A stretch of 64,000 nt of DNA, from NCBI RefSeq assembly GCF_003605755.1, contig NZ_RAHJ01000014.1:62001-126000 (forward strand), in the 5' to 3' direction. This stretch comes from Tsuneonella suprasediminis. GTDB lineage: Bacteria > Pseudomonadota > Alphaproteobacteria > Sphingomonadales > Sphingomonadaceae. The notes below the pieces were generated by a model that saw only the letters and a list, made by a program, of their open reading frames with translations, was not told the DNA's origin and did no database searches. The number at the start of each line of letters is the position of its first letter. Within the stretch, counting starts at the first letter, position 1. Below are positions 26,335 to 43,467 of this stretch, piece by piece. Both the position numbers and the translations under genes were made by a program.

Positions 26335-26384
26335 CACGCGGCAAGCCAGATTCGGTGAGGTGGAACAAAGTTCGCCTCATCGTG

Positions 26385-26630: not shown

Positions 26631-26674
26631 AAAAGGTGGCTATCGAGGGCGCCTTAGGCGCCAACCCTCTCCCA

Positions 26675-28546
26675 TCAGTAAAAGCGTACCGCGCCCAGAC
26701 GTAACGATGCGCTGCCCCCGGCTTCACCCGATAGCTGAATACGCAGTGCGCGCAGTTGCGACAGGTCCAGTGCCGCATCGGCATCGCGACTGCGAAACGC
26801 GCTGAACGGGATGCGGATCGTGGTTTCGCCGCCACCTGCCTTGAACGGGGCGGCGAACCAATCCCCGCCCGACAGACCATAGGATTCGAGCACCAGCCGA
26901 TATTGGCCTGTGCCCTGTGCCTTGAATTCGACCCCTGCAAATTTCCGCGCATCGGCAACGAAAATCGGCCCCCGCGTCAGCGGCAGCACCCATTGGACAT
27001 AAGGGCGCGGCGCGGCCCCCATCTGTGCGGCGAGGAAAGTATGCTTCCCTTCCCCCTGCTCCCCCCACTGCTCCCCATCGCCTGCATGGGCATCGTGAAC
27101 CGCGATCAGATGCGAATGATCGATCCCCGGATCGGTGGTCGCCACTGGCAAGGTATCGAGATCGGTCCGCCCGTCTGCCCGTGCCCCGGTCATGATCGGC
27201 CCGGTCATCGCGACCGACGGCATGGCCGACATCGCGGGCGCATCGCGCAGCGCGCGCAGCTTCGCCAGTGGCGCTTCGCATCCGGCCACCCATACCCGCG
27301 CCACATGCCACAGGTCTTCGATCCGTTTATCCGGCTGGCCATCGACCAACACCAGATCGGCCCGCATGCCGGGGGCAATCGTGCCGTGGTCGCCATCCTG
27401 CCGCATAATTTCCGCGCTGGTACGGGTCGCCGCCACCAGAGCTTGCGCCGGGGTATAGCCGAGCTGAGTCAGCCACCAGATCTCGCGCACCGCACCCGGC
27501 CCATGATAGACCCCGCCGATCCCCGCATCGGTGCCGATGCCGACAGGAACGCCCGCCTTCTTCAGCCGCCGGATATTGTCGCGCATGATCGTCCAGCGCC
27601 GCGCATCATAAGGCTGGACAGTACGGTCGTCGCTGGCGGCCTGGGCTGCTTCCCGCGCGCGTTCGCCGGGATTGAGTTCGGCCATTTCCGCCGCCGACAT
27701 CGTGCGCGTCTGTTGCGGTTCATAGACCACCAGCGTCGCGATGTAGGCGGTACGGTTCTTCTTCATCAGATCGATCAGCTCTTTATCGATCAGAGCATCG
27801 CCAACCCCGTGGCCGACTGCATTCACCCCTGCCGCCGCCGCCACTTTCGCCTCTTCCAGCCTGACAGTGTGCGTCACCACCGGCTTGCCCTGCTTGTGCG
27901 CGTCAGCGACGATAGCGGCCAGTGTCGGCTCGTTCATATCCATCAGATCGGGATCGCGGCCATAGCGCCAGCCGTCCGCGAACACCTTGATCATGTCGGG
28001 ATTGTATCTGAGCGCCAGCGGCATTTCGGCATGGGCGGCGCGCGGGGTCGCCACTTGCATGGTAAAGAAATTACCCCAGCCATATTCGGTGCCATGCCCG
28101 CCGGGCACCCCGAACCGGATCGCTTCGTTCAGATGCGGCGCCCAGTAATCGCCCGATTTCACCATTTCGCGGATCGGCGCAATCATTTCGCCCGATACCG
28201 AGAAGTCGTTGATCGAAGTAACTCCAGCCAGCAGATATCCGGCCCATGCCTTCGGCAGATCTTCGGGCGCGCTATATGCCGGGGAACGGGTGTGGGTATG
28301 CAGATCGTGCAGGCCGGGGATCAGGGTCTTGCCTGTGCCGTCGACACGCTCGACATCGGCAGGGACATCGATATCGCTGCCCACGGCGACGATCCGCTCT
28401 CCCTCCACCAGCACATCGGCGACGCGCGCCTTCGCGCCGGTGCCATCGAACACCCGCGCCCCTTCGATCAGGATGGCATCGGCTGCCAGTGCGGCATGGG
28501 CCGTGGACAGCGCAAGAGCCGCAATGCAGAGGGCGAGGCGTTTCAT
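26675..28546 (-). CDS. Secreted amidohydrolase with C-terminal CIA30-like domain
   Basis: A 623-residue two-domain protein. A signal peptide (LALCIAALALSTAHAALA) is followed by a metal-dependent amidohydrolase domain: TLIPGLHDLHTHTRS (HxH), VVTHTVRLEEAKVA, VNAVGHGVGDALI and GIGTDAGIGG (metal Asp). From about residue 450 a beta-sandwich follows with VQWVLPLTRGPIFVADARKF, IRIPFSAF and LRALRIQLSG, which resembles the CIA30/carbohydrate-binding fold. The start at 28546 follows GGAAGT. A much longer open frame exists upstream but runs antisense through dacB and has no signal peptide. Substrate unknown; imidazolonepropionase- or prolidase-like in style. Confidence 0.82.
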   Translation of the reverse strand: MKRLALCIAALALSTAHAALAADAILIEGARVFDGTGAKARVADVLVEGERIVAVGSDIDVPADVERVDGTGKTLIPGLHDLHTHTRSPAYSAPEDLPKAWAGYLLAGVTSINDFSVSGEMIAPIREMVKSGDYWAPHLNEAIRFGVPGGHGTEYGWGNFFTMQVATPRAAHAEMPLALRYNPDMIKVFADGWRYGRDPDLMDMNEPTLAAIVADAHKQGKPVVTHTVRLEEAKVAAAAGVNAVGHGVGDALIDKELIDLMKKNRTAYIATLVVYEPQQTRTMSAAEMAELNPGERAREAAQAASDDRTVQPYDARRWTIMRDNIRRLKKAGVPVGIGTDAGIGGVYHGPGAVREIWWLTQLGYTPAQALVAATRTSAEIMRQDGDHGTIAPGMRADLVLVDGQPDKRIEDLWHVARVWVAGCEAPLAKLRALRDAPAMSAMPSVAMTGPIMTGARADGRTDLDTLPVATTDPGIDHSHLIAVHDAHAGDGEQWGEQGEGKHTFLAAQMGAAPRPYVQWVLPLTRGPIFVADARKFAGVEFKAQGTGQYRLVLESYGLSGGDWFAAPFKAGGGETTIRIPFSAFRSRDADAALDLSQLRALRIQLSGEAGGSASLRLGAVRFY

Positions 28547-28702
28547 AGTCGGTACTTCCCCGGTTTTGCAGGCTGCGAGTGTGCCGGGCACGCCAATGCG
28601 CTGCAAGTCTGCCCTAACCCGCCATGCGGCCCGGTTATGACAAAGGCAAATCTTGGTATCGCCCCCGCTTGCCTCCGCGCGATGTTGCGATAACCTCGCC
28701 CG

Positions 28703-30199
28703 ATGCACAGATCGACCCTTGCCGCTGCCATCGCCTTCGCCCTGCTGGCAGTGCCCGCTCACGCCGATGCCGGCGCCCCCACCGCCCCTGCGCGCGAGAT
28801 GTCTCATTCGCCTGCGACAGGCGATGCCGCTGCAATACTGGCGGAAGCCGGACCGGGCACACGCTGGGGGCTGGTGATCGCTGATCCCAATGGGGAAGAG
28901 ATCGTCACCATCGATCCCGAGGGGCGCTTCATGCCCGCATCCAATACCAAGATTTTCACCACCGCTGTGGCGATGTGGTCGGTCGCCAGCGGCCAGTTCA
29001 CCGATGCCGAAGGCGCTGGCGCGACCGTTCGGCTGGAACCGGGCGCCCATCGCGGGGCGCGCGATGTCGTGCTGGCCGGATATGGCGATGCGCGCCTGTC
29101 CGCGGCGGACGATTGCGTGACCGACTGCCTGTCGACACTGGCCGATGCCATCGCCGCGAAAACCCGCCGGGTCGGCAATGTCGTGGGGGACGATACCGCC
29201 TTTCCCGATCAGCGCTGGAGCCCGGGGATGAGCTGGAACAACATCCCCAGCCCGTGGGGCACGGGGGTTTCCGCACTGACGCTGGACGACAACGAAACCC
29301 GCGCGCTGGTAACACCGGGCGAGATCGGAGAAGCACCGCAAGTAACGGTGAGCGAATACTACACCGTTGAAAATCATGCCCGAACGATCGAAGGCGACAG
29401 CGAAGCCATCGCTTACGACCGGATGCCCAACAGCCGGGTGCTGATTGTCACCGGCACCATTGGCAATGACGCGGAACCCGAAAGCCTGCGGCTCGGCATC
29501 GACGATCCCGCGCATTACGCCGCATGGCGGCTGGCACAAATGCTGCGCGCGCGCGGGGTTGCTGTCACCGGCGAAGTGCTGTCGCGGCATCGCCCGTTGC
29601 TGCCTGAAGACGATCCGGCACTCCGCGCCGGACCGGCGGCGCGTCCGCCCCGGCCATCTGCGCTGGCCACCGCCACGCCCGCCCCGCTGTACGATGACAT
29701 CGTGACAATCAACAAAGTCAGCCAGAACCTTCACGCCGACCTGCTGTTGCGGCGAGTGGGGGCGATTGGCGGCACCGGATCGATTGCCGACGGGCAGGCG
29801 GTCGTGCGTGCCATGCTGGCTGAGGCGGGCGTGCCCGAACGCATGGTCAGCCTGTCGGACGGTTCGGGCATGTCGAGTTATAACCGGGTCGCGCCACGCG
29901 GCATGGTCACTTTTCTGAACTGGATCGCCCGGCAGCCATGGGGCGCGAAGTGGACTGAAACACTGCCCATCGGCGGGACCGACGGATCGCTACGCCGCCG
30001 CTTCGCGGACACGCCGCTGGCAGGGCAGATCCACGCCAAGACCGGCTCTCTCAATGCCACCAACGCACTGGCCGGATACCTGACTGCGGCAAGCGGCAAA
30101 CGCTATACGTTCGCGATCTACGCCAACGATGTGCCCGATGACGTGCGCGCAACCCAGTATATGGACCGCGCGCTGACGGCATTCGCCGCCGCGCACTGA
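28703..30199 (+). CDS. dacB: D-alanyl-D-alanine carboxypeptidase/endopeptidase (PBP4, DacB)
   Basis: A 498-residue penicillin-binding protein of class C type 4. A signal peptide (AAAIAFALLAVPAHA) leads to the active-site SNTK (Ser80, Lys83). SSYN in LSDGSGMSSYNRV supplies the SxN element, and HAKTGSL the KTG. A large insert between SxxK and SxN is normal for PBP4. It trims D-Ala or cross-links in peptidoglycan and so releases D-amino-acid-containing products into the periplasm. It is divergent from the CIA30-type amidohydrolase and convergent with the symporter gene, 13 bases apart. Confidence 0.92.
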   Translation: MHRSTLAAAIAFALLAVPAHADAGAPTAPAREMSHSPATGDAAAILAEAGPGTRWGLVIADPNGEEIVTIDPEGRFMPASNTKIFTTAVAMWSVASGQFTDAEGAGATVRLEPGAHRGARDVVLAGYGDARLSAADDCVTDCLSTLADAIAAKTRRVGNVVGDDTAFPDQRWSPGMSWNNIPSPWGTGVSALTLDDNETRALVTPGEIGEAPQVTVSEYYTVENHARTIEGDSEAIAYDRMPNSRVLIVTGTIGNDAEPESLRLGIDDPAHYAAWRLAQMLRARGVAVTGEVLSRHRPLLPEDDPALRAGPAARPPRPSALATATPAPLYDDIVTINKVSQNLHADLLLRRVGAIGGTGSIADGQAVVRAMLAEAGVPERMVSLSDGSGMSSYNRVAPRGMVTFLNWIARQPWGAKWTETLPIGGTDGSLRRRFADTPLAGQIHAKTGSLNATNALAGYLTAASGKRYTFAIYANDVPDDVRATQYMDRALTAFAAAH

Positions 30200-30212: not shown

Positions 30213-31547
30213 TTACAGGCGCAAGTCATGTTCGCCCGGCGATGAATCGACGGGTGCTTGCCCTCCGGCGGCATAGACATCCCGCTCCATCTCGCCCAGC
30301 CGCGCGGCCATCACCGTGGCATTGACCATATTGCTCGACACATTGACCGTCGTTCGCATCATATCCAGCAAGCGGTCGAACGGCAGGATGAAGCCCACGA
30401 TCAGCGCGGATTCGACGTCGCTCACCCCGACGACGATCAGCACCGCCGCCATCATGAACATCGCGGCAGAGGGGACCGGCGGCGCACCCAGCGCCAGCAA
30501 CGTCGATACCGCGACCACCAGCATCAGATCGCCAAGCGATGGCGCAATGCCCAGCGCCTGAATCGCGAACATAGACAGCAGCGCAACGAACATCGCCGTG
30601 CCATCGCGGGCGATGCCCACCCCAACAGGCAGGACGGTGGAGGCAATGCTTTTGTCGATGCCGAACTTTTCCTCTGCAATGGCCAGCTCGACCGGCAAGC
30701 TGGCCGAACTGGACGAAGTGGAGAAGGCAATCACCAGCGCGTCGATCGCACCGCGCAGATATGGCAACGGAGATAGCCGCGCCAACAGCGCGATCAGCCC
30801 GACGTGCACGATCAGCAACTGCAGAACGCAGCCCAGCAAAGTGCCCAGCGCCAACAGGGAAATATTGACGAACACACCCAGCCCGTGCGCCCCGACAGCC
30901 GCCGCCATCAGGCCAAACACCCCGATGGGCGCCACTTCCATCACGAATACCACCAGCCGCATCATCGCTTCGGATGCCAGCCCGATCACATTGGCCAGCG
31001 GCTGCCCCCGCTCGCCCAGCGTCAGAATGCCGACTGCGAAGAAGATCGCGAAGAAGATGATCGCCAGCATATCCCCGTCGGCCAGCGCCTGTACCGGATT
31101 GACCGGGATGATCGACAGCAACTGTTCGGACAATGTCCGCCCTGCTGCGATGGTCTGCGGTTTGGCGCCGACGAGACTTACCCCGTCACCCGGTTGCAGC
31201 AACAGGCCAATTGCCATGCCCAGCGTCGCTGCAACCAAAGCGCTGGCGGCAAACAGCGATAACGCGCGCACCCCCAACGACCCCAACCGTTTGGGATTGC
31301 CCATGCCGATCACCCCGGCAGTGATGGTGAAAAAGATCAGCGGCGCAACCAGCATTCGGGCCAGCCGTACGAATATATCGCCCAGCAAGTGCAGGCGAAC
31401 CGCATCTTCGCCCCAGATCAGGCCCGCTGCCACCCCAGCGACGAAGGCGGGCACGATCCGTTTCCACAACGGTATGTCGAACCAATACCGCTGCAAGGCA
31501 CTGCGAGACGTGTCCTGACCACTTTGTTCGTAACCCGCATTTGCCAT
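30213..31547 (-). CDS. Dicarboxylate/amino acid:cation symporter (DAACS, GltP-like)
   Basis: A 444-residue membrane protein with about eight hydrophobic segments. The serine-rich hairpin FSTSSSSASLPV (about 300) and the downstream GIARDGTAMF, in place of the more common NMDGT, identify the glutamate/C4-dicarboxylate symporter family. It would import glutamate, aspartate or a dicarboxylate with a cation. The ATG at 31547 follows GGGGGC. The gene is divergent from gntR; the gap carries the ATTGTTGACAAT palindrome, so it is probably GntR-regulated. Import of D- or L-glutamate would suit the dgc genes 6 kb away; this is inference. Confidence 0.9.
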   Translation of the reverse strand: MANAGYEQSGQDTSRSALQRYWFDIPLWKRIVPAFVAGVAAGLIWGEDAVRLHLLGDIFVRLARMLVAPLIFFTITAGVIGMGNPKRLGSLGVRALSLFAASALVAATLGMAIGLLLQPGDGVSLVGAKPQTIAAGRTLSEQLLSIIPVNPVQALADGDMLAIIFFAIFFAVGILTLGERGQPLANVIGLASEAMMRLVVFVMEVAPIGVFGLMAAAVGAHGLGVFVNISLLALGTLLGCVLQLLIVHVGLIALLARLSPLPYLRGAIDALVIAFSTSSSSASLPVELAIAEEKFGIDKSIASTVLPVGVGIARDGTAMFVALLSMFAIQALGIAPSLGDLMLVVAVSTLLALGAPPVPSAAMFMMAAVLIVVGVSDVESALIVGFILPFDRLLDMMRTTVNVSSNMVNATVMAARLGEMERDVYAAGGQAPVDSSPGEHDLRL

Positions 31548-31653: not shown

Positions 31654-31665
31654 ATTGTTGACAAT
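31654..31665. promoter_or_regulatory. GntR box 1 (ATTGTTGACAAT)
   Basis: ATTGT-TG-ACAAT is a perfect 5-bp inverted repeat with the GT-N2-AC core expected for FadR-subfamily GntR sites. It lies in the symporter-gntR gap, 107 bases from the symporter start and 133 from gntR, so it could serve both and allow autoregulation. The same core recurs at 35507 and 38078. Confidence 0.72.
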
Positions 31666-31797
31666 CGACTTTATAGCCAGCAGAGGCGCTTTTCGCCTAC
31701 AGTTCCCGAACCGGCATCAATGGCCGGTCCTCCACCCGATTGCCTGTCCAATTCGGATAGGCTAGCCTGAAAAGAGTTACTTAATGGAAGATCAGTC

Positions 31798-32478
31798 GTG
31801 AAAATGCCGACCGTCCCCAAATTGCAAAAGCAGACGTTCGGTGCCCGTATCGCTGACGAATTGCGCCGGAGTATTTTTGCGGGAGAAATCGCGCCCGGTT
31901 CCGCATTGATCGAAACTGCTCTGGCCAGTCAGTTCGGTGTCAGTCGCGGCCCTCTGCGCGAAGCGATCAGGCAGCTTATCGACGAAGGATTGCTGGTTCA
32001 GGTTCCCTTTACCGGTACGCACGTGGTGGAACTGTCTGAACAGGCCGTACGCGAAATCTACTCGCTGCGAACGACATTGGAAACGTTCGCATTTCGCCTC
32101 GCATGGGATCGCCGCGATGCGGAATTCGCGAACGAACTGAAAGCGCGGCAGGCCGCTCTGATCGACGCGATCGATCTGGGCGATGAGCTGGAATGTATTC
32201 GCCGCGAATTGGATTTGCATTCGCTAGTATATGAAACGGCCAATCATCAGATTCTGCTGGAAGTGTGGAACGGGCTGAAAGGGAAACTGCAGCTGTATTG
32301 GGCGTCGCACCATATGGCGCACGGCCGCCGCGGCCCGCGCCGGGATAGCCATGACAGCTTTCTCGATGCCGCACTGGGCGATGACTTACCCGCGATGGAG
32401 GCTGAAATAGAAACCCACATGCGCCTTGGCAGTGAAACGACCGAACGTTTTCTGAAGGATCGCAATCAAACCGCCTGA
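31798..32478 (+). CDS. GntR-family regulator (FadR/FCD subfamily)
   Basis: A 226-residue regulator. The winged helix is RIADELRRSIFAGEIAPGS then LIETALASQFGVSRGPLREA, followed by an all-helical FCD domain with the metal-binding pattern Asp/His (RRELDLHSLVYETANH), HDSFLDAALGDD and a late THMRLGSE. A GTG at 31798 has GGAAG eight bases ahead; the ATG two codons in is equivalent. Three copies of the same palindrome in nearby gaps define its likely regulon: the symporter, itself, the TonB receptor, the amidohydrolase-PhzF operon and the aminotransferase-DUF885 pair. Confidence 0.9.
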   Translation: MKMPTVPKLQKQTFGARIADELRRSIFAGEIAPGSALIETALASQFGVSRGPLREAIRQLIDEGLLVQVPFTGTHVVELSEQAVREIYSLRTTLETFAFRLAWDRRDAEFANELKARQAALIDAIDLGDELECIRRELDLHSLVYETANHQILLEVWNGLKGKLQLYWASHHMAHGRRGPRRDSHDSFLDAALGDDLPAMEAEIETHMRLGSETTERFLKDRNQTA

Positions 32479-32561
32479 AGTCTGCGTAAGCCGACCTTCG
32501 AGCGGCAGCCTTACCCCGGCTTGCAGCAGATGCGGCACGTCGGGGGAAGGCCGGGCAAGGA

Positions 32562-35459
32562 TCAAAATTTGACGTTGATCCCCGCGAAATACCTGCGACC
32601 CAGCACATCGTAAGTCGCCTCCGCGGTATTGACCGGACCGCCCAACCGCGTTCCCAGCAGCGGAGGGGCGTTGTCGAAGAGGTTGTTCACACCGCCGTAG
32701 AGCGAGAGGCTGTTGGTCAGTTCCACCCGCAACGCGAGATCGAAATAGCTCTCTGCCGGGAAATGGTCGCGATAGGCGGTCTGCCCTTCGCGCAGAGTTA
32801 TCGGGCTGAGATAGCGCCCACGCGCCGTAACGCTCAACGGGCCGCTGGAATATGTCGCGGCAACCTGAGCCTTGAACGCCTGCGAAATCCACGAACCCGC
32901 CCCGGTGCAGCCCGGACCGAACCGGCCCGAACAGGCAATCGGCTCGCTACCCGGCAGGGGAACGGTCGTATCGTCGAACTGGCGATTGCCGGCAAACCGG
33001 AACACAAGGCTGCCGGTATCGCCAAACAGCGACAGCCCGCCTTGCAGCGGCAGATGGTAATCGATCTGAAAATCGATCCCGCGCACCTTGCGGCTGGCGA
33101 CGTTCATCAGCGTGGTCTGAATCGTCGCAATATCGCCATTGGGGAAGCGCGACACTCGCTGACAGAACGGATCGTTCAGATCGAGAGCCTGAAAACACTG
33201 ATCGATCGTCGCCTGAGCCGAAACGTTCGAAATCGCATTATCGACTGCGATATCGTAAAAATCCGCAGTGATGTTCAGCCGCCGGGCAAACGGCGGCGTC
33301 AGGACGATGCCGACCGTGTATGTATCGGAATTCTCTTCCTGAAGATTGGGGTTGCCACCGCCCATCACGTTCACATTCGTGCCGACCTGCACAAATGTGT
33401 CGATATCGGCAGCGGGAATACCCTGCGCGACACAGAAAGCCTTCGCCGCCGCCGACGGCGCGCGCCTGTAATCGCACGGATCGGTGCCCGACGAAGAGCC
33501 GGAACTGGCATTGGCAAACAGGTCCGACAGGCTCGGCGCTCGCACCGATTGCTGGTAGGCTCCGCGCAAACGAAGCCAGGGGGTGATGCCCCATTGCCCA
33601 CCCAGCTTATACGCAAATGTAGAGCCGATCGACGAATAATGGGAAAAGCGGACCGCCCCTTCCAGCGACAGGTCGTGAAAGAAAGGGCGATCCGCCAGCA
33701 AGGGGATGCGGATCTCCCCATACTGTTCGAACACATCGACATCGCCGCTGTTGGGCGGATTGGGCACATTGGCGGAAAGCTGACCCGCCGCCACCTGAGC
33801 ATCGGGTTTGAAGGTGAAGCTTTCCTTGCGATATTCGATCCCGAACGCGACCGCGACTGGCCCTGCGGGCAAATCGAACAAGCTCCCGCTGATGGTGGCC
33901 GCGGCAAGATCGCGGGTTACTTCGGTGGTATCGGTCGCGGCGGGGCTGATAAATGCCGCCGCTTCGGGTGACACCGAACCGACGCCGAAAATATTCACGG
34001 GCACGCAACCCATCGTCTGGGTCCGGCACACCGCGTCGCCCGTGTCGGGATCGATCACCACATCCAGCCCCAGGGCAAGTCTGTCTTTGGAAACCGTGCC
34101 ATAAGCCGCCCGAAACTGGCTGACCGACTGATGCGAGTAATAGGCATCCCAGGCCCAATCCCGCTGGCCGACAGCGAATTTGCCTTTCAGCCCCAGCGTG
34201 CCCTGATACGATTTACGGCGAAAATCGTAGGAACGCGGGCCGAGTTCGATTGGCCGGGTCAACACGTTGGTCAGCGTATAAGTGCCATCGCCATCGGGAT
34301 CGAACAGCCACGCATTGGCAGACAGGAATTCGCGCGTGGCGACCGACAACGCCGGATTGGTTGCCGCCCCCGGAATTTCCAGTTGCCCTGACCGCCCGTT
34401 CTGAGCGCGAAACGCCACCGGCGCGATCTGATAGCTGTTGAGGTTATCGACGAAATACCCTTCGGCATAAGCTGTGATCGAATCCGTCAGATCGTAATGC
34501 CCGATCACTGTCAGCTGGTAGCGTTCCTGCGGGCGCATCAGCAGGTTATCACTGCCGAAGTTATAAAGGTCTTCGGGGTTGCAGAACGGTTGTGCCGCTC
34601 CGGTTGAATCGAAACGCACCCCGGTCACCGAACAATTGGCCCCGGCCAGATCGACTCCGACCAGACGTTCGCGCTGAGCGGATGACAGCCCGAGATAACT
34701 GCCCGGAATCTGAGTGGCCCCGCCGGGCACCAGTTCATCGCCGGATTCGACCAGCGCGGTTCGCGAGAATTCGCGGTCCCCCGCCGAGATCGCAGACTGG
34801 CGGTGATAAGCAAGGCTGGCGGCGACGTTTCCGCGATTGTCGGCAAAATTGCCGCCGAGCGTCACGCTCGCTTTGTGCCGCTGCCCATCGCCCCGCTCGG
34901 TCACGGCGAAGCTGTAATCGGCTTCGATCCCTTCAAACTTGTCGTCGAGAATGAAGTTCACGACACCGGCTACGGCATCGGAACCATAGACTGCCGATGC
35001 CCCGCCGGTTACCACTTCGACCCGCTTCACCAAAGCTTCGGGAATTGTCGAAAGATCGACGAGGAGATCGGGATTGACCGGCACAAACCGTCGGCCATTG
35101 ACCAGCACCAGCGTTCGTGATGCGCCCAGCCCGCGCATGTCCGCCGTGTATATGCCCGCGGCATTGGTATTGCCCGCCGTCGCCCCTCCCTGCGCCTTGA
35201 GCTGCGGCAGTTCGTTGAGTGTTTGTTCGATCGTGCCGTTGCCCGAAAGCCGGATCTGATCTTCGGAAACAACGCTGACCGGACTGGTCGCAGTCAGGTC
35301 GGCGCGCTGGAGCCGGGTTCCGGTGACGACGATTGGTTCATCGTTTGCTCCCTCTTGTGCAAACGAAGGCGCGGCAGCGGTCAGCGCAATCAGTGATGCC
35401 CCCACCCCCAATACGATGCGGGAACGTCGATAGTCGGCGATCAAATCGAGAATTGCCAT
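32562..35459 (-). CDS. TonB-dependent receptor, GntR-box associated
   Basis: A 965-residue outer-membrane receptor. Signal peptide ASLIALTAAAPSFA, TonB-box-like EPIVVTGTR, plug domain with TLVLVNGRRFVPVNPD and RVEVVTGGASAVYGSDAVAG, then a large barrel ending in YFAGINVKF. The QEGANDEPIVVTGTR start and long barrel match the sphingomonad receptors that import peptides or oligomeric carbon sources. A ribosome site GGGGGTAAG precedes the ATG. GntR box 2 lies 48 bases upstream of the start, so it is probably induced with the catabolic genes. Ligand unknown; peptidoglycan fragments or peptides are inferred from context. Confidence 0.93.
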   Translation of the reverse strand: MAILDLIADYRRSRIVLGVGASLIALTAAAPSFAQEGANDEPIVVTGTRLQRADLTATSPVSVVSEDQIRLSGNGTIEQTLNELPQLKAQGGATAGNTNAAGIYTADMRGLGASRTLVLVNGRRFVPVNPDLLVDLSTIPEALVKRVEVVTGGASAVYGSDAVAGVVNFILDDKFEGIEADYSFAVTERGDGQRHKASVTLGGNFADNRGNVAASLAYHRQSAISAGDREFSRTALVESGDELVPGGATQIPGSYLGLSSAQRERLVGVDLAGANCSVTGVRFDSTGAAQPFCNPEDLYNFGSDNLLMRPQERYQLTVIGHYDLTDSITAYAEGYFVDNLNSYQIAPVAFRAQNGRSGQLEIPGAATNPALSVATREFLSANAWLFDPDGDGTYTLTNVLTRPIELGPRSYDFRRKSYQGTLGLKGKFAVGQRDWAWDAYYSHQSVSQFRAAYGTVSKDRLALGLDVVIDPDTGDAVCRTQTMGCVPVNIFGVGSVSPEAAAFISPAATDTTEVTRDLAAATISGSLFDLPAGPVAVAFGIEYRKESFTFKPDAQVAAGQLSANVPNPPNSGDVDVFEQYGEIRIPLLADRPFFHDLSLEGAVRFSHYSSIGSTFAYKLGGQWGITPWLRLRGAYQQSVRAPSLSDLFANASSGSSSGTDPCDYRRAPSAAAKAFCVAQGIPAADIDTFVQVGTNVNVMGGGNPNLQEENSDTYTVGIVLTPPFARRLNITADFYDIAVDNAISNVSAQATIDQCFQALDLNDPFCQRVSRFPNGDIATIQTTLMNVASRKVRGIDFQIDYHLPLQGGLSLFGDTGSLVFRFAGNRQFDDTTVPLPGSEPIACSGRFGPGCTGAGSWISQAFKAQVAATYSSGPLSVTARGRYLSPITLREGQTAYRDHFPAESYFDLALRVELTNSLSLYGGVNNLFDNAPPLLGTRLGGPVNTAEATYDVLGRRYFAGINVKF

Positions 35460-35506
35460 GCTTACCCCCTGATTACGTCAAGCGTGAGAACCCATAACCC
35501 ATCAAT

Positions 35507-35518
35507 ATTGTCAACAAT
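35507..35518. promoter_or_regulatory. GntR box 2 (ATTGTCAACAAT)
   Basis: This is the exact reverse complement of boxes 1 and 3 in the 12-base core. It lies 48 bases upstream of the TonB receptor start, in the gap after the PhzF gene. A small stem-loop with a T5 run on the minus strand (about 35532-35555) may end the PhzF transcript just before it, giving the receptor its own regulated promoter. Confidence 0.72.
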
Positions 35519-35570
35519 CAACATTGTATGAAAAAGCTTCTTGCTGGCAAGCCTTTTGTCGTTCCGGCGC

Positions 35571-36410
35571 TCACGAGCAGGCGCCTGCCATCATGGGCGA
35601 ACCGGCGAAGGGGGTGATCGTAGTTGCGAATCCGCCCACTGCGACACGGTTGCCGAGATGGCGGGTCGCAATCGCTCCTCCGCGTCGGGACGCCTGCCAG
35701 CACATCAGATTCCCGCCGAGCCGGGGGAGCCAGTATGGCGCGAGACAGACATGGGCCGTGCCAGTGGCCTGATCTTCGTCCACCCCCACAATCGGGGCAA
35801 AGTTGCGCGAGACGATATGATAGCCAGGCATATCCGAGGGTGCCGTCACGATCAGCGACCGCACCCCCATTGCGACAAGCGCCCCAAAGTCCGGCCGCGC
35901 GGCCCGAACCGCCGCCGCACTGGCACATTCGAGCAGCCAGCGCCCACCAAAACGGGACGCTGCAATCCATTCCATCCCGACACATTCGGCAAGCGGGGCG
36001 GGAACCGTTTCGTGCGCGCCCTGAATAGCGGCGAATTCCAGCCAGATCATACCATCGGATTCGCGCCGGGCCGTAATGTCAGCGCCGTCATTTGTCCGAA
36101 AGGCAATCGTATCGCCACGCAGGCCCGCCGCAGATTGCCACAGCACATGCGCCGCCGCCAGCGTGGCGTGGCCGCATAGATCGACTTCCTTCAGCGGGGA
36201 AAACCAACGGATGATCCATCGGTCGCCATCTGCGAACAGGAATGCCGTCTCCGGTTGCCCCAGCCCGGTCGCGATGGCCTGCATATACGTATCGGGAATG
36301 GGGCGCGGCAAAATGCACACCCCGGCCGGATTGCCGCCATCGGCAGAATTGGCAAACGCCGCGACGATGGAGGTAGAGACGCCGCTTATCGCTTTTTCGG
36401 GCGCCTCCAT
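35571..36410 (-). CDS. PhzF-family epimerase/isomerase
   Basis: About 279 residues with the diaminopimelate-epimerase-like fold of PhzF/YddE proteins. Features are the N-terminal FANSADGGNPAGVCIL, QPETAFLF with the conserved catalytic Glu position, EVDLCGHATLAAAHVLW and EDQATGTAHVCLAPYW. Members isomerise small acids; many have no known substrate. The ATG overlaps the stop of the upstream amidohydrolase (TGATG); a GTG one codon earlier is possible. In this setting it may epimerise or isomerise an amino-acid-derived intermediate. The exact reaction is unknown. Confidence 0.86.
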   Translation of the reverse strand: MEAPEKAISGVSTSIVAAFANSADGGNPAGVCILPRPIPDTYMQAIATGLGQPETAFLFADGDRWIIRWFSPLKEVDLCGHATLAAAHVLWQSAAGLRGDTIAFRTNDGADITARRESDGMIWLEFAAIQGAHETVPAPLAECVGMEWIAASRFGGRWLLECASAAAVRAARPDFGALVAMGVRSLIVTAPSDMPGYHIVSRNFAPIVGVDEDQATGTAHVCLAPYWLPRLGGNLMCWQASRRGGAIATRHLGNRVAVGGFATTITPFAGSPMMAGACS

Positions 36411-38028
36411 CACGAACCGTCGCCGCGCCGTTCGGCGGAAACAATATTCTCCACGTCCGCCAGCAAGCGATCAGGATCGTAGATCCGCCCGTCTACGATA
36501 ACCGCACGAATGCGGCTGCGGCGTTGCGGCCGGCCGGTCGCCTTATCGACCGGTCCACGCCCGATCAGCACTTTGAAATCCTCCAGCGGATTTTCATCGA
36601 GGATCACCATGTCGGCAACAAATCCGGGCCGCAGCACACCCATCCGGGGTTGTTGCAGAACCCGCGCGCCGTTCTGGGTCGCCGCCCGCACCACTTCCAG
36701 CGGGGTCAGTCCAGCTTCCAGCAGCAGTTCCAGCTCGCGAACCGTCTGGAACCCGTAAAGCTGGAACGGACCGCCCGAGTCCGAACCGACCGAGACATGC
36801 CCGCCTTGCCGCACATATTCGCGGATAAAGCGCATCCAGTTGCGATAGGCTGTGCTGCTGACGCCTCGTCATTGCTCGTCCACCGGTCGAAGATCGCCCC
36901 GTGGCGGCTGGGATCGGGCGTGCGCCAGCGGTGCAGATCGCCGGGCCGCGTATAGCGATCGAGCCAGGGGACATTGGCCGCACGGGTAAAGTCGCGCTGC
37001 TTTTCATAAACCACCATCGTCGGGTTCATCGTGAACCGCCCGTCCCGGCTGGCCTGCGCCAGTTCGGGTGCGACTTCGCTCAGCAATCTGTCCATGTCGG
37101 TCTGGTTCCAGATGGCGAGCGTCTCGCGGAAGCGCTGCCGTTCGTCATCGTAGTTATACGACAGCGGCATGACAGGGATCGTCGTGTGCGGCAGAGCCAG
37201 TTCGGGATAGCCATAGTGGTGTTCGACGGTGGTCGCTCCACCGTTCACCGCGACCAGAGCGTTCACACCGGGCGACGCGCTTTGCGGGATATGGATCGCC
37301 AGCCCCATCCCGTATCGTTCGGTTTCGCGGCCAAGCGCACGCACCATGTCGGGATACTGGTTGCCCACTCTGACGAGTTTGATCCCGTCCACACCCAGTT
37401 CGTGCCAACGCTTCACCAGCGCCGGAACCTGATCGGCGGTACGCACCGAATCCGGCAGGAAGGGATAAACCCACATGCGCGGAGCGACCACCTGCCCGGC
37501 GGCGATCCGTTTCTTTTCCGACAGGAACCCTTCGGGCACCGTGGTCCCTTCACCGAAATTCCCATCGAGATTCCGCAAGCTGGTCACCCCGTGAGCGAGG
37601 AACAGCTTGTAAATGAACGCGCGCGGAGTGGGCGGATAGAGGTGGGCGTGCGTATCGATGATGCCCGGCATCACAAACCGGCCCTCTGCATCGATCGTTA
37701 ACCCATCGAAATCGGTTCCACCCTGCTTTTCCAGAGCCAGTCCGGTGCTGGAAAGGATCGGGGTCGAATCGCGGATTTCGGTGATGATCCCGCCGCGAAC
37801 ATATATGTCCACTTTCCCCCGCAGCGGAGCCCCCGACCCGTCGATCAGCATGGCGTTGCGAACCACCATTTCCGAATGCTGCGGAGCGATCTGGACAGGA
37901 TCTCCCCCGCCCTCCCCCGGCTCGGTTTGCGCCAGTGCCAGGGCGCTTGGAAACAGCGCAGCAAACAGCATCGTGGCGACCAGTCGCGCCATTCTGCAGA
38001 CACCGCCTTTATTGGAAGAATGCGTCAT
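36410..38028 (-). pseudogene. Secreted amidohydrolase disrupted by a single-base frameshift
   Basis: The gene reads from an ATG at 38028 (GGGGGGCAAG ahead) with a signal peptide (MLFAALFPSALALAQ), MPGIIDTHAHLYPP (HxH metal site), AIHIPQSASPG, and TTVEHHYGYPEL. At about 36850 the frame changes: the first part ends ...NDEASAAQ and then drifts, while the next frame continues AYRNWMRFIREYVRQGG, HVSVGSDSGGPFQL (metal Asp) and RPGFVADMVILDENPLEDFK. One missing G (CAGGCC read as CAGCC) restores one continuous protein of about 539 residues. Either a true lesion or a sequencing error. It heads an operon with the PhzF gene, and GntR box 3 lies upstream. Confidence 0.85.
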
Positions 38029-38077
38029 CTTGCCCCCCCGCAGCAAAAATTTGCCTACAACCGGGAATATCAAGTCG

Positions 38078-38089
38078 ATTGTTGACAAT
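38078..38089. promoter_or_regulatory. GntR box 3 (ATTGTTGACAAT)
   Basis: Identical 12-base core to box 1, with the flanks CG and CAA also shared in part. It lies in the divergent gap between the amidohydrolase-PhzF operon (50 bases from its start) and the aminotransferase gene (57 bases from its start), so one site could control both directions. Confidence 0.74.
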
Positions 38090-38145: not shown

Positions 38146-39090
38146 ATGACGGGCTCTGCCAATTCGGAAAATTCTTTTCCGACCGATATCGCCAGCGCGC
38201 AGGGATATGTTGGCGACCCGCGCAACGACGACGTTCGCATTTATGTGAACGGACAGTTCCACACCCGCAACTCAGCGACAGTGTCGATTTTCGATGCTGG
38301 CTTCATTCTGGGCGATGGGGTTTGGGAAGGGGTGCGTCTCGTGCGCGGTAATCTGGTGGAGCTGGACGCACACCTCGACCGCCTGTTCGAAGGGGCACGG
38401 GCGATCCAGCTCGACATCGGCCTTGATCGGAAAGGCGTGGAACAGATCATCCGCGACACATTGGCGGAAAACGACATGCACGACGGGGTGCATATCCGGC
38501 TGATGATTACGCGGGGCAAAAAACGGACCCCGAATCAGGATCCCCGGTTCACTGCGGGCCCGCCGACGATCGTGGTAGTTGCCGAATACAAGGCCTGCCG
38601 TCCACTGAGCGAGAAAACCGGCCTGCGGCTGCTGACATCGACTATCCGCTGCAGCACCCCCGATGTATTCGACCTGCGGCTTAACTCTCACAGCAGGCTC
38701 AACTTCATTCAGGCTCTGATTCAGGCGATCAATGCCAATTGCGACGAAGCCCTGATGCTGGATCAGCGTGGCTTTGTGGCAAGCTGCAATTCCACTAACT
38801 TCTTCATCGTGCGCGGGCAGGAACTGTGGACCTCCACCGGTGCATGCTGCTTCAATGGCATTACCCGCGCCAAAACCATCGCTCTGTATGAAGATGGCAT
38901 GGGCGTGGTTCGGCAAAAGGACTTCACACTTGCGGAAACCTACTCCGCCGACGAAGCCTTCCTGACCGGCACTTTGGGCGGCATCACACCGGTCAGCGTT
39001 ATCGACGGGCGGACTATCGGCGATGGGCAGACCGGGCCGGTTACCGCCGCGATAAGTGCAGCATATCTGCGCCATATCGGGGCTGCTTAG
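38146..39090 (+). CDS. Class IV (D-amino-acid/branched-chain type) aminotransferase with altered active-site Lys
   Basis: A 314-residue fold-type IV PLP enzyme: RIYVNGQFHTRNSATVSIFD, DGVWEGVRLVRG, DEALMLDQRGFVASCNSTNF (the conserved Glu/Asp and Asn-rich PLP region) and LTGTLGGITPVSVIDGR. D-amino-acid transaminases and IlvE belong here. The residue expected to be the PLP-binding Lys reads Arg184 in NSHSRLNF (codon AGG, 38695-38697); relatives, as I remember them, have NSHSKLN. A single A-to-G change would explain this. If real, normal transamination should be lost. It is divergent from the amidohydrolase across GntR box 3 and followed by the DUF885 gene, 72 bases away. Confidence 0.85.
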   Translation: MTGSANSENSFPTDIASAQGYVGDPRNDDVRIYVNGQFHTRNSATVSIFDAGFILGDGVWEGVRLVRGNLVELDAHLDRLFEGARAIQLDIGLDRKGVEQIIRDTLAENDMHDGVHIRLMITRGKKRTPNQDPRFTAGPPTIVVVAEYKACRPLSEKTGLRLLTSTIRCSTPDVFDLRLNSHSRLNFIQALIQAINANCDEALMLDQRGFVASCNSTNFFIVRGQELWTSTGACCFNGITRAKTIALYEDGMGVVRQKDFTLAETYSADEAFLTGTLGGITPVSVIDGRTIGDGQTGPVTAAISAAYLRHIGAA

Positions 39091-39162: not shown

Positions 39163-40905
39163 ATGAAAGCTTTGAAAGCCATACATTTCGGCCATCTGTG
39201 CGGTGTAGCCTTGGCGATCTGCCTTGTGTCGACCCCTGCTTTGGGCCGCACCACTGCGGAACCGTCTCTTGATTCCATCGCGCACGAATATACGCACGTG
39301 CAGGACCGCAGCGAACCCGGCATCGCGCCCGACTGGCCGGACATCTCGCCCGTGGCACAGGAAGAAAAGCAGCGCCGCCTGCAAACGTTGCTGACCCAGC
39401 TCGACAACTTGCCGCCGACCGACGATGTCAACCGGCAGTTCGACCGTGCGATGTTGCGTTATATGCTGGAAAGCGATCTGGCGGCGTTCCCGTTCGATCA
39501 AAGCCGGATGCCGTTTTCCAACGGTCAGGGTTTCTTCCGCATCCCCGGCAATGTGGCCAACACCACCACGATCCGCAATCGGGCCGATGCCGATAACTGG
39601 CTGGCGCGGCTGGCCAGTGCCCCCGACTTCTATACCGCGCACATCGCCAATATGCGGCGCGGGCTGAAAGACGGGTTCACGCAGCCGGGCCTGATCGTGG
39701 ATGAAATGCTGCGCCCGTTGCAGGCGGCGGTGGATACGCCGGTGGCCGACGATGCCCTGCTGAAACCTTTCGCCAGCCTGCCGCCCTCTATCGCCCCGAC
39801 GGATCAGGCGCGGTTGCGGACCGAAGCGGTGCGCCTGATCGCGGAGAAAGTGCGCCCCGCGCAACGCGCCGCGGTGAAGTTCATGCGCGAGGAATACCGG
39901 CCTGCTGCACGTTCCACGCTGGCCGCGCGCGATCTGCCCGGTGGAGAAGAATTCTATCCCTATCTGATCCGCAAGTTCACCACGACCGATCTCACCCCGG
40001 AACAGATCCACGCCATCGGGGAAAGCGAAGTCGCGCGCATCAGGGGCGAAATGGAAGCGATCGCGCGATCGACCGGCTTCACCGGCACTATCGCTGAATT
40101 CAACGACGCGCTGCGCGCCGATCCCGCCAACTTTGCGGCCAGCCCCGAAGATTACATGGAAAAGGCATCCGAAGTGTCGAAACGCGCAGACCGCGCGATT
40201 CCGCGATGGTTCGGCAAACTGCCCCGTTTGACCTGGGGCCCGTTATTCAAAACACCGGCGCAGGAAGGCACCGCCAATATCTATCTGCGCGGGTCGCTGG
40301 AAAAAGGCGTACCGGGCAGCATCATGATGTCGCACCGCGACGCGACCAAATCGCCACTGTACCAGTTGCCCGCATGGGTCATCCACGAAGGGGTGCCAGG
40401 CCATCATTTCCAGATTTCGCGGACGCAGGAAAACGAGGACTTGCCTGAATTCCGGCGCGAGGCACGGGTCACCGCACTGATCGAAGGCTGGGCGCTGTAT
40501 GCCGAAGGGCTGGCGGAAGAAATGGGCCTCTACCACACCGAGAAAGAGCGGTTCGGCCGCCTGTCGTTCGAAATGTATCGCGCGTGCCGACTGGTGATGG
40601 ATACCGGCATCCACTGGATGCGCTGGTCGCGCGAACGGGCGCGCGAATGTCTGGCGCAGAACACCGCGCTCAGCCCCGCGATGGTGGAGTTCGAAACCAA
40701 CCGCTATATCAGCCAGCCCGGTCAGGCGCTGGCTTACAAGATCGGGGAGCTACGCATCCGTGAAATCCGCACCCGCGCGGAACGGGCGCTGGGGCCCAAA
40801 TTCGATATCCGCGCATTCCACGATGCCCTGATCGACGGCGGGCCGATGCCGCTGGCCATGCTCGACCGGTATATGGATGACTGGATCGCCGCGCAGGCGA
40901 AATAA
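39163..40905 (+). CDS. DUF885-family predicted zinc metallopeptidase, secreted
   Basis: A 580-residue protein with a signal peptide (VALAICLVSTPALG). The thermolysin-like zinc motif is in WVIHEGVPGHHFQ near residue 407 (HEGxPGHH instead of HExxH), and the downstream EGWALYAEGLAEEMG near 438 provides the third ligand and base. This is the standard DUF885 pattern. Such proteins are thought to act as peptidases. With a class IV aminotransferase ahead and a TonB receptor nearby it probably cleaves imported or periplasmic peptides; the specificity is unknown. It ends 7 bases before the convergent serine hydrolase. Confidence 0.88.
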   Translation: MKALKAIHFGHLCGVALAICLVSTPALGRTTAEPSLDSIAHEYTHVQDRSEPGIAPDWPDISPVAQEEKQRRLQTLLTQLDNLPPTDDVNRQFDRAMLRYMLESDLAAFPFDQSRMPFSNGQGFFRIPGNVANTTTIRNRADADNWLARLASAPDFYTAHIANMRRGLKDGFTQPGLIVDEMLRPLQAAVDTPVADDALLKPFASLPPSIAPTDQARLRTEAVRLIAEKVRPAQRAAVKFMREEYRPAARSTLAARDLPGGEEFYPYLIRKFTTTDLTPEQIHAIGESEVARIRGEMEAIARSTGFTGTIAEFNDALRADPANFAASPEDYMEKASEVSKRADRAIPRWFGKLPRLTWGPLFKTPAQEGTANIYLRGSLEKGVPGSIMMSHRDATKSPLYQLPAWVIHEGVPGHHFQISRTQENEDLPEFRREARVTALIEGWALYAEGLAEEMGLYHTEKERFGRLSFEMYRACRLVMDTGIHWMRWSRERARECLAQNTALSPAMVEFETNRYISQPGQALAYKIGELRIREIRTRAERALGPKFDIRAFHDALIDGGPMPLAMLDRYMDDWIAAQAK

Positions 40906-40912: not shown

Positions 40913-41938
40913 TCAGCTCTCCCCGCCACTATCAAAGGCAGCGATCAGCGCGTCGCCGGTGGCGGGGCGCAGTCTGAAAATCTCCGTCGCACCGTGGCGC
41001 GTGGGGTGGACACGGTTGGTCAGCAGTGTCCAGCTGAGCCCGCGTTCGAAATCGACCCACAGGCCGGTGCCGGTAAAGCCGGTGTGGCCGATGGTTTCAT
41101 CCGAACAGGCATCGCCCCCCGGCCACCCGGCGAAGCGCCGTTCCCAGCCGCAGGTCCGGTCGCCGTTGCAACGTTCGCGCATCGCCGCCAGCATCGCCGC
41201 ACTGGCCCCGCTGCCATCGAGCAGCCCGCGCGCGAAATCGAGCACGCCATCGACTGTACCGAACAACCCGGCATGGCCCGCCGCGCCGCCCAGCGCGAAG
41301 GCGTTTTCATCGTGCACTTCGCCCTGCAAGACCCGGTCCCGCCACATGCACCGTTCTGTCGCCACCGTCGGGCCGGGCGGCGGGCCGAATGCCAGCCCGT
41401 CGCCCAGCGACCACTCGGCCAGCGACGCACCCGTTATCCGTTCGATAGCGATGCCCAGCAGAATGAAGTTGATGTCGGAATAGACCGGCGGCCCCGCGCG
41501 CCATTCGCGCTGCAACACGAATGCGCGCAGCCGCGCCGGATCATCGCCATAAGTATAGATCGGCTCCACCGCAGGCAGATGCGTGCGATGCGCCAGACAG
41601 TCGCGGAAGGTCAGCCTGCGCTCCGCCGCGCCGAGTGGATCGTATTGCCGCAAGTCGGGGATCGCGTCGGTCAGCGGGCGGTCGAGGTCGACCCGCCCTT
41701 CGTCCGCCAGCCGCAGGATCATCGTGGCAGTGGCGATCACTTTGGACACCGACGCCAGATCGAACCAGTGATCGCGGGTCAGCGCCTGCCGCTCCGGCTC
41801 TGTCGCGGCGCATCCGGCCAGCCGCACGGCCCGCTGCCCGTCGGCAGTGACGACGCCCAGCGTCGCGCCGGGTATGTGCCTATTGGCCACCGCCTGTGCA
41901 GCGGGGGCGAAGGCGCGTTGGGCAATCCGTTCGATCAT
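40913..41938 (-). CDS. Serine hydrolase (class C beta-lactamase fold), cytoplasmic
   Basis: About 341 residues without a signal peptide. LASVSKVIAT gives SxxK (near 63), YSDIN the Tyr element and GHTGFTG the HTG triad equivalent of KTG. The frame begins ATG overlapping the stop of the AmpG-like transporter (ATGA). This coupling points to a cytosolic hydrolase that acts on what the transporter brings in, for example a muropeptide amide or ester. That is inference; beta-lactamase activity is unlikely given the missing signal peptide. Confidence 0.85.
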   Translation of the reverse strand: MIERIAQRAFAPAAQAVANRHIPGATLGVVTADGQRAVRLAGCAATEPERQALTRDHWFDLASVSKVIATATMILRLADEGRVDLDRPLTDAIPDLRQYDPLGAAERRLTFRDCLAHRTHLPAVEPIYTYGDDPARLRAFVLQREWRAGPPVYSDINFILLGIAIERITGASLAEWSLGDGLAFGPPPGPTVATERCMWRDRVLQGEVHDENAFALGGAAGHAGLFGTVDGVLDFARGLLDGSGASAAMLAAMRERCNGDRTCGWERRFAGWPGGDACSDETIGHTGFTGTGLWVDFERGLSWTLLTNRVHPTRHGATEIFRLRPATGDALIAAFDSGGES

Positions 41939-43467
41939 GCGCCGAACACGCTTTCCGGGGTAATGACCTCTTCATCCGGTTCGCGCGCGGCAACGCGCGT
42001 CACGAACGGGATCAGCACCACGGCGACCACGGTCACAAACCCGGCGAACAGGAAGAAACCGTCGTACCCGACCGCCTTCTGCATTGTACCCGAAGCCCCC
42101 GCCAGCAAGCGGGCCAGCAGGAAGGCGAAGCCGGACAGGAAGGCATATTGCGCCGCCGGATAACGCGGGTTCACCAGCATCGAGAGATAAACCACGAACA
42201 CTGTGCCCGCCAGACCGTTGCCGAACTGATCGAGCGCGACCGAGGCATAGAGCACCCATCCTGCGGGCGGGGTCCACCACAGCCAGACATAGACCCAGTT
42301 GCCCAGCGCCGCGACCACCGCGCCCGCCGCCAGCGCCGGCCCCAGCCGCCACTTCGCCGCGATCCATCCGCCAATCGCCACGCCCAGCATACTGGCGGGC
42401 AAGGCCACCGCGCCATCGGCAATCCCGATCTGATCGAGCGAGTAACCGCGTTCGTTCCACAACGGGTGCGACAGCGTCAGCGCCAGCACATCGCCCACCC
42501 GGTAGAGCGACACAAATGCCAGCACCGCCAGCGTGGCATAGCCATAGCGCCAGAAGATATCGACATACGGCCCCGCCACGGGGGACCGACGCCAGGGCGC
42601 ATCGGCCCCCATCTTGCGGATACGCGGCAGCGCGAAGGCCAGCGCGATGAACGGCAACATGCACACCACCAGCACGAACGGGGTGATATTGCTGTCGGAA
42701 TCGACCCCCGCCGCCGCCACGCTGCGTAATGCGACCCAGCCGATGGCCGCAGTGGCCACTGTTACCAGCGCAGCGATAATTCCGCTGGCGACGACGCCGC
42801 TGGCCAGCGATGCCCAGCGCCCGCCGCGCGCGTCCGCCTCCCCACGCATCGCAGCAAGGATCGGAAACGGCGCGAAGGCCGCAGCGGCAATCGCCAGATA
42901 GGCCCATGTCCAGTCGGCCCGCGCTGCGATCAGCGCGGCCCCGCTGCCTGCGGCGACCATTGCGCTGCGGTATCCCCACAGGTTCGCGGCCACCACCGGC
43001 CCCTGTTCCGATTGCGACGGGGCCAGTTCGATCCGCCAGCCATCGGCGGCGATTTCCAGCGTCGTGGTCCAGAACGCCAGCGTCACAGCGAACAGCGCCG
43101 TAAGCGGCAGACTGGTATCGTCGCTGGTCGCGGCCATACCGATCATCGCGGTAAAAATGCCCAGTTGCGCCAGCATGATCCAACCGCGCCGCTTGCCCCA
43201 GAACCGGGAGAAGCCCGGCGCATCCCATTTTTCCAGCAGTGGCGCCCACAGGAATTTGAACGTCGGCAACAGCGCGACCCAGGCGAAAAACCCGATGATC
43301 GCAATATCGACCCCATGTTTCGCCAGCCGCAACGTGAGCACGGCATTGAACATGTAAAACGGCAGCCCTGCGGAAAAGCCGAGGAGCAGGTAGAGGCCGA
43401 GCAGCCGCCCGGGCACTTTCGCTTTTTCGCCTGCCTCTGCGGCACCTGCAATCACTGTCACGCACAC
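41935..43467 (-). CDS. AmpG-like MFS transporter (muropeptide permease family)
   Basis: A 510-residue membrane protein with about 12-14 hydrophobic segments. The start region GLYLLLGFSAGLPFYMFNAV and then LTLRLAKHGVDIAIIGFFAW is typical of AmpG-type permeases that import anhydromuropeptides into the cytoplasm. LEIAADGWRIEL, the late LDQFGNGLAGTVFVVYLSML, and the long central segment fit too. The start is GTG (43467) with GGGGA nearby; GTG codons four or more residues in are alternatives. It is coupled to the serine hydrolase by ATGA overlap, and divergent from the TonB receptor with 193 bases between. This supports a peptidoglycan recycling role. Confidence 0.8.
   Translation of the reverse strand: MCVTVIAGAAEAGEKAKVPGRLLGLYLLLGFSAGLPFYMFNAVLTLRLAKHGVDIAIIGFFAWVALLPTFKFLWAPLLEKWDAPGFSRFWGKRRGWIMLAQLGIFTAMIGMAATSDDTSLPLTALFAVTLAFWTTTLEIAADGWRIELAPSQSEQGPVVAANLWGYRSAMVAAGSGAALIAARADWTWAYLAIAAAAFAPFPILAAMRGEADARGGRWASLASGVVASGIIAALVTVATAAIGWVALRSVAAAGVDSDSNITPFVLVVCMLPFIALAFALPRIRKMGADAPWRRSPVAGPYVDIFWRYGYATLAVLAFVSLYRVGDVLALTLSHPLWNERGYSLDQIGIADGAVALPASMLGVAIGGWIAAKWRLGPALAAGAVVAALGNWVYVWLWWTPPAGWVLYASVALDQFGNGLAGTVFVVYLSMLVNPRYPAAQYAFLSGFAFLLARLLAGASGTMQKAVGYDGFFLFAGFVTVVAVVLIPFVTRVAAREPDEEVITPESVFGA

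Follow-up and report, generated by a model that had tools for sequence, protein, structure and literature searches.

A likely local GntR/FCD regulon, with a predicted role in peptide-like scavenging, around a lysine-less aminotransferase-like protein in Tsuneonella suprasediminis

Introduction

Among described systems, the closest to the one considered here is governed by PrpR (PA0797), the repressor of the methylcitrate operon of Pseudomonas aeruginosa, which is built from a GntR and an FCD domain. Repression by PrpR is shown, and the protein binds a 250-bp fragment from upstream of prpR that holds the predicted 12-nucleotide palindrome ATTGTCGACAAT, located 84 bp upstream of the gene (PMC9765439). 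Here we analyse a stretch of 64,000 nucleotides of Tsuneonella suprasediminis DNA (contig NZ_RAHJ01000014.1, positions 62,001 to 126,000; hereafter the window), in which a regulator gene of like domain composition, gntR, lies close to three exact copies of an operator-like word. Whereas PrpR governs the prp operon, the three sites of the window lie beside genes for uptake and hydrolysis, and the scanned open reading frames (ORFs) include no prp gene. The best explanation, and in our view a likely one, is a local GntR/FCD regulon for the scavenging of a peptide-like compound, which was probably acquired horizontally and is partly decaying.

Two further groups of systems bear comparison with this locus. 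In sphingomonads and their relatives, scavenging clusters built around TonB-dependent receptors unite a local regulator, the receptor, hydrolases and an inner-membrane transporter. The window system differs from these by a PhzF-family isomerase, by links to putA and proC in related loci, and by a class IV aminotransferase-like protein without catalytic lysine, which we call AT4. Class IV transaminases, such as the branched-chain aminotransferases (BCAT), the D-amino-acid transaminases and aminodeoxychorismate lyase, have the PF01063 domain and the Arg79 and Thr276 motifs in common with AT4. In contrast, their catalytic lysine and the glutamate at the cofactor ring nitrogen are both replaced in AT4. 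A protein of Variovorax paradoxus with a solved structure (7z79) resembles AT4 in having asparagine at the lysine place and the stretch NSHSRLN. A literature search over titles and abstract openings, mostly outside subscription journals, returned no recognised description of this unit or of the lysine-less family, and no recognised publication or function for the 7z79 protein; the consulted passages of PMC10003956 make no mention of lysine-less proteins.

Results

Three exact operator sites in the window

The word ATTGTTGACAAT occurs in the window in three exact copies (n = 3), as the initial annotation had noted: between the symporter gene and gntR (site 1), ahead of the TonB-dependent receptor gene (site 2), and between the amidohydrolase and AT4 genes (site 3; Table 1). 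It had been described as a 12-base palindrome, of which the inverted repeat ATTGT/ACAAT around a 2-bp centre stands, but not perfect symmetry. Some 12-mers do recur by chance within 64 kb, and the three copies might conceivably be such a chance word or one derived from a repeat. We regard this as next to negligible: 0.02 copies are expected against the three found, none of 100 shuffled sequences reached three, the sites are kept in S. flavalba amid diverged flanks, and they co-occur with the regulator.

Across the genome of the organism (3,304,416 bases in 22 contigs), the pattern ATTGTNNACAAT (ATTGT-N2-ACAAT) is found at four places, namely the three window sites and one position on another contig (C6:8467). 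The latter, with T instead of C on its right flank, was set aside as an operator because it sits within an ORF, an unrelated one of 213 amino acids. A motif that was frequent and unlinked to gntR had been named at the outset as the observation that would speak against a regulon; the genome scan for exact sites found nothing of that kind. Copies with one mismatch occur at 56 places, compared with 17 for a reversed control pattern, and such sites were therefore not counted as evidence for this genome.

Measured to preferred start codons, which were chosen by eye from the sequence, site 1 lies 132 bp from gntR (GTG 31798) and 106 bp from the symporter gene (ATG 31547), site 2 lies 47 bp from the receptor gene (ATG 35459), and site 3 lies 56 bp from the AT4 gene (ATG 38146) and 49 bp from the amidohydrolase gene (ATG 38028). 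Given the ATG starts for symporter and amidohydrolase, all three sites are intergenic, and the proposed placement ahead of gene starts holds. Were the TTG codons that open the longest ORFs used instead, the symporter would start at 31646 and the amidohydrolase start would come to lie under site 3. At the same position as site 2, an exact counterpart is present in S. flavalba (locus L008) and one with a single mismatch in T. flava (L007); the counterparts of site 3 are exact in both.

A promoter-like match (TTGCCA-16-TACAAT, 10 of 12; 35550-35523 on the minus strand) reads toward the receptor gene. Site 2 begins 4 bp beyond the -10 element of this match and covers its expected transcription start. 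We also considered TTGACA, which is present in each site when read toward gntR, the receptor or AT4, as a -35 box. No match of the promoter scan uses it, the receptor site of S. flavalba reads ATTGTCAACAAT in the direction of the receptor, and the claim was dropped.

The operator accompanies the regulator across genomes

The GntR winged-helix and FCD domains of the regulator score 60.5 and 54.1 bits, both over the Pfam cut-offs. Searches for homologues found them in 2 of 148 related genomes (that of T. suprasediminis itself and T. flava), in 4 loci of a contig collection, in 6 of 385 genomes of the class (own included), and in 8 plasmid records. The resulting 18 regulator loci, the window and 17 further distinct ones, take in homologues within E-value limits of 1e-20, 1e-3, 1e-45 and 1e-30, weaker ones being below detection.

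Of these 18 loci, 15 carry an exact copy of the pattern no more than about 150 bp ahead of the gntR start as aligned, and 17 carry one somewhere in the locus. In T. flava, the copy upstream of gntR deviates at one base, and the AT4 site is exact; in L121, an exact site precedes an operon that ends in gntR; in L010, a Clostridia locus whose GntR homologue is 30% identical, the exact site is absent. Distances refer to gntR starts as aligned. With the annotated start of L114 (8872), the site would fall inside the gene, whereas with that of the near-identical L115 (8989) it would not. Where AT4-family loci have no close homologue of the regulator, the operator is absent (0 of 22 loci, 413 kb scanned); among those 22, L074 holds gntR-like fragments and L076 a GntR protein of 28% identity. 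In L071, a gntR-like tail was seen by eye in the vicinity of a gene annotated as IS5 transposase. Over 24 aligned sites, three of them with one mismatch, the core is preceded by G in 16 and followed by C in 22.

This cross-genome comparison ties the operator sites to the GntR/FCD gene, and binding of the former by the product of the latter is predicted. The binding of PrpR to a fragment with a like operator core points the same way, as does the stretch SRGPLREAI, which the regulator has in common with its nearest solved structure, 7xp0. The initial proposal of a local three-site regulon under the adjacent FCD-type GntR protein is thereby supported, by the specificity of the sites within the genome as well as by their co-occurrence with the regulator across loci.

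Might the regulator instead respond to propionate or methylcitrate, as a PrpR/PmiR-type protein with a shared operator for which the genes of the locus are a side regulon? The operator core of the window is the same as that of P. aeruginosa PrpR, and four AT4 loci have MmgE/PrpD-family genes as neighbours. The nearest solved structure, 7xp0, we take to be PmiR and the same protein as PrpR. However, a Pfam scan found methylcitrate genes in 0 of 26 window ORFs (some of these antisense; the prp search did not extend beyond the window), 16 of the 18 loci pair gntR with AT4, and the four MmgE loci are without regulator and operator. We consider this explanation very improbable.

AT4 lacks the catalytic lysine of class IV transaminases

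AT4 matches PF01063 with 150.8 bits (cut-off 28.5). When it is aligned to three BCAT rows, the catalytic-lysine stretch NIKSLNYLN falls opposite RLNSHSRLN, and Asn180 takes the place of the lysine. Among the 76 distinct AT4-family sequences obtained from the fetched loci (own included), asparagine at 180, His182 and Ser183 are found in 76/76, position 213 is serine or threonine in 76/76, and no column provides a substitute invariant lysine. The BCAT rows have glutamate at 213, a residue that presumably contacts the ring nitrogen of pyridoxal phosphate (PLP). Arg79 (76/76) and Thr276 (75/76), both aligning with conserved BCAT motifs, are kept. The genome encodes two more class IV proteins (L126 and L127). 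They stand outside the alignment of 76 and have lysine and glutamate in the corresponding motifs, including glutamate at the place of residue 213. In L126, read as aminodeoxychorismate-lyase-like, the lysine pairs with Asn180 and the glutamate with Ser213; in the BCAT-like L127, the motif lysine is present but the alignment is poor there.

Because the catalytic lysine is missing, AT4 is probably not a transaminase. The initial annotation had read the locus as one of transamination and D-amino-acid catabolism. If a D-amino-acid peptide were imported and degraded and AT4 were a working D-amino-acid transaminase, this would agree with the class IV membership of AT4 and with its match to PRK06680, a 'D-amino-acid transaminase' model; neighbouring serine hydrolase, major facilitator superfamily (MFS) and S13 genes could hint at wall chemistry. 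Yet lysine and glutamate are replaced in all 76 sequences, with no invariant lysine elsewhere to substitute, and AT4 stays under every listed NCBIfam cut-off (TIGR01121, 141.5 against 277.45; PRK06680, 167.5 against 320). The residues and the cut-offs speak against a D-amino-acid transaminase identity of AT4, and the D-amino-acid reading of the locus, which we do not retain, appears quite improbable.

The nearest solved relative of AT4 is the V. paradoxus aminotransferase-like protein (Protein Data Bank (PDB) entry 7z79, E 6e-118), of which an N174K mutant has been deposited (9j32). A structure model of AT4, with a mean predicted local distance difference test score of 46.1, was excluded from the evidence and used for PDB titles alone.

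What might a fold-type-IV protein do without its lysine? Fold-II beta-eliminases use serine or threonine at the ring nitrogen. Conceivably, the AT4 family performs elimination, not transamination, on amino acids from which a group leaves readily, and the regulon scavenges amino acids or peptides that carry such a group. The sulfotransferase matches near family members outside the GntR/ABC clade and the ClC genes behind AT4 within it, both described below, would fit this reading, but we think it unlikely. The same doubt applies to the chemistry that such a function would call for, namely PLP bound with no internal aldimine, or a different phosphate cofactor, acting on substrates that are, for example, O-sulfated or halogenated.

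Genes of the locus and their state in relatives

Table 1. Positions of the regulator, operator sites and neighbouring genes, numbered from the first letter of the window.
Feature	Position	Strand	Remarks
SDF (sodium:dicarboxylate/DAACS) symporter	30213..31547	-	Pfam SDF, E 6.7e-100; ORF can open at 31646, ATG 31547 preferred
Operator site 1	31654..31665	+	symporter-gntR gap; among the 24 aligned sites
gntR, FCD-type regulator, 226 aa	31798..32478	+	Pfam GntR and FCD
TonB-dependent receptor	32562..35459	-	Pfam plug and barrel
Operator site 2	35507..35518	-	ahead of TonB-dependent receptor
PhzF-family isomerase	35571..36413	-	Pfam PhzC-PhzF, E 6e-42
Amidohydrolase (imidodipeptidase-like superfamily), probably exported	36410..38028	-	frame broken; ORFs 36706-38088 and 36410-36835
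Operator site 3	38078..38089	+	amidohydrolase-AT4 gap
Class IV aminotransferase-like protein (AT4)	38146..39090	+	Asn180 for catalytic Lys, Ser213 for ring-nitrogen Glu
DUF885 protein	39163..40905	+	Pfam DUF885, E 4.6e-146

The PhzF protein exceeds the subfamily cut-off of TIGR00654 (81.8 against 76.2), and the DUF885 protein is, as judged from its sequence, probably an exported metallopeptidase. In S. flavalba, the genes for the regulator, symporter, receptor, DUF885 protein, PhzF protein, amidohydrolase and an AT4-like protein all stand together, with 76% identity to the window for the symporter, 76% for the receptor and 70% for the DUF885 protein. Its operators, of which three are exact and one more deviates at a single base, are distributed over the gntR/symporter gap, the receptor and the divergent amidohydrolase/AT4 gap; the three window sites are thus conserved at equivalent places despite diverged flanks. 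This retention of the gene set together with three exact sites supports the initial idea of one dedicated uptake and degradation system. The S. flavalba locus also has putA 3 bp after the symporter gene and, following AT4, an S10 serine carboxypeptidase frame that is open to the end of the locus. It is rearranged: the DUF885 gene lies behind the receptor gene, whereas in the window it lies behind AT4. Its presence beside operons of the regulon in both arrangements argues for a joint function. T. flava retains gntR, symporter, receptor, AT4 and an open S10 carboxypeptidase frame of 543 codons. At E <= 1e-90, the amidohydrolase is found in 3 of 396 genomes of the order (own, S. flavalba, and a distant one at 40%).

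Several other genes surround the regulon. On the minus strand at 40913-43467, a beta-lactamase-family serine hydrolase gene overlaps an MFS-like gene by four bases; the pair is kept in T. flava, and the exact motif was not found near it. Two more amidohydrolase-family genes (encoding proteins of 549 and 1019 amino acids) are situated at 24685-29734, without the exact motif. A betaine/carnitine/choline transporter gene of the BCCT family (46746-48737, minus strand) adjoins a second TonB-dependent receptor gene at 43661-46663.

A wider regulator-AT4-transporter module

AT4 is present in all regulator loci except L010 and L117. Regulator, an amino-acid ATP-binding cassette (ABC) transporter and AT4 occur together in 12 of the 18 (L009, L072, L073, L089, L112-L115 and L118-L121). 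Five rhizobial or rhodobacterial operons carry proC, and in L121 a putA match lies upstream of the operator. The nearest solved structures of the L072 ProC protein are pyrroline-5-carboxylate reductases. The putA genes of S. flavalba and L121, together with the proC links, weakly suggest a product near proline or pyrroline-carboxylate. The L072 binding protein of the ABC transporter gave no clue to the substrate: most of its nearest solved relatives are cyclohexadienyl dehydratases, either ancestral or modern.

A ClC-type chloride channel gene lies directly behind AT4 in L009, L071, L072, L073, L089, L114 and L115, and about 2.5 kb off in L116. MmgE/PrpD-family genes are found within the ABC-transporter/AT4 clusters L070, L075, L090 and L091, where the GntR regulator and the operator are absent.

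In a tree of AT4 proteins, the window, T. flava and S. flavalba group together (Shimodaira-Hasegawa-like approximate likelihood ratio test support 98). This trio is nested with other Alphaproteobacteria in a clade of 20 rows (support 96), 15 of them linked to GntR. The majority of AT4-like proteins from the organism's own family and order branch elsewhere. Horizontal acquisition is the simplest reading because of this placement and because the regulator is found in only the two related genomes named above; the core of regulator, AT4 and transporter was thus probably acquired from other Alphaproteobacteria.

Outside the GntR/ABC clade, a PF19798-type sulfotransferase match lies within 1.5 kb of at least 47 of 56 AT4-family members (41 of 50 rows of clade II and 6 of 6 intermediate rows), a lower bound since many loci have flanks of only 1.5 kb, compared with 0 of 20 members within the clade. 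The sulfotransferase-linked loci include L092, L093, L094, L097, L099-L103 and most of the clade II loci examined. In five loci scanned with Pfam, the sulfotransferase and AT4-like genes are adjacent on one strand.

Discussion

How might the regulon work? Control by repression is most likely. We envision that the GntR protein binds operators of the type GATTGT-N2-ACAATC in the gap between its own gene and the symporter gene, ahead of the receptor gene, and in the divergent gap between amidohydrolase-phzF and AT4-DUF885, and that it keeps the three units off until a small inducer derived from the substrate, such as a breakdown product, frees it. The TonB-dependent receptor would then import a peptide-like compound, from which exported hydrolases (the DUF885 protein and, in relatives, also the S10 serine carboxypeptidase and the amidohydrolase) would release an amino-acid-like unit. 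The SDF symporter would carry the freed unit inward, where AT4 would act on it, joined in some relatives by PutA (S. flavalba) or ProC (the rhizobial and rhodobacterial operons), both of them proline-linked enzymes. From an evolutionary perspective, sphingomonads may have added an outer-membrane and periplasmic front end to the regulator-AT4-transporter core.

A number of observations weigh against a working regulon of this kind. The amidohydrolase-PhzF operon of the initial annotation is present with both its genes, but relative to the intact S. flavalba gene (539 amino acids, Amidohydro_1 67.9 bits) the amidohydrolase has lost one base near 36850, which splits it into two frames; no intact frame covers the family domain, and the window gene is probably a pseudogene, unless the missing base is an assembly error. 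In the T. flava locus, phzF is without a match, the amidohydrolase and DUF885 genes have decayed to fragments, and two of the three operators carry a mismatch. Given the frameshift in the window and the decay of genes and operators in T. flava, this genus may be in the course of losing the pathway. The ratio of nonsynonymous to synonymous substitution rates between the window and T. flava is 0.056 for gntR, 0.106 for the symporter, 0.096 for the receptor and 0.092 for AT4, and two neighbours outside the regulon have similar values (0.104 and 0.118); the regulon values therefore indicate constraint, yet nothing special to the regulon. In the promoter scan, sites 1 and 3 are without an adjacent promoter-like match, and the region as a whole has 3 hits against 2.0 in shuffled sequence, which is no excess. 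Among the relatives, AT4 is not nearby in L117 (36%, with operator) and L010 (without operator), and only 6 of the 12 ABC-type operons carry ClC and only 5 carry ProC. Finally, the analysis shows the sites, their specificity within the genome, their co-occurrence with the regulator, the gene content and the loss of lysine and glutamate, whereas binding and repression, the inducer, the class of substrate, hydrolase export and the directions of both flow and transfer are inferred.

Alternatively, the hydrolases may be a relic, and the regulator, symporter, receptor and AT4 alone may still work, importing a free amino-acid derivative. The broken amidohydrolase and the losses in T. flava, where gntR, symporter, receptor and AT4 are constrained, would accord with this, as would the 12 relatives with regulator, AT4 and ABC transporter, in which the hydrolases have no match at E 1e-12. 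However, the DUF885 and phzF frames of the window are open, as is the long S10 carboxypeptidase frame of T. flava, and S. flavalba has the whole set in open frames, its S10 frame reaching the end of the locus. We regard a relic as possible, if rather doubtful, and favour the scavenging of a peptide-like compound by a regulon that is in part decaying.

Its conserved regulator and three defined operators make the locus a testable regulon. It also draws attention to a widespread family of aminotransferase-like proteins that still belong to the fold family but have lost the lysine that defines the chemistry. Relatives of AT4 are publicly annotated as D-amino-acid or branched-chain transaminases, and we caution against such naming. 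A catabolic operon with a sensor of its own would offer a practical route to the function of the AT4 family.

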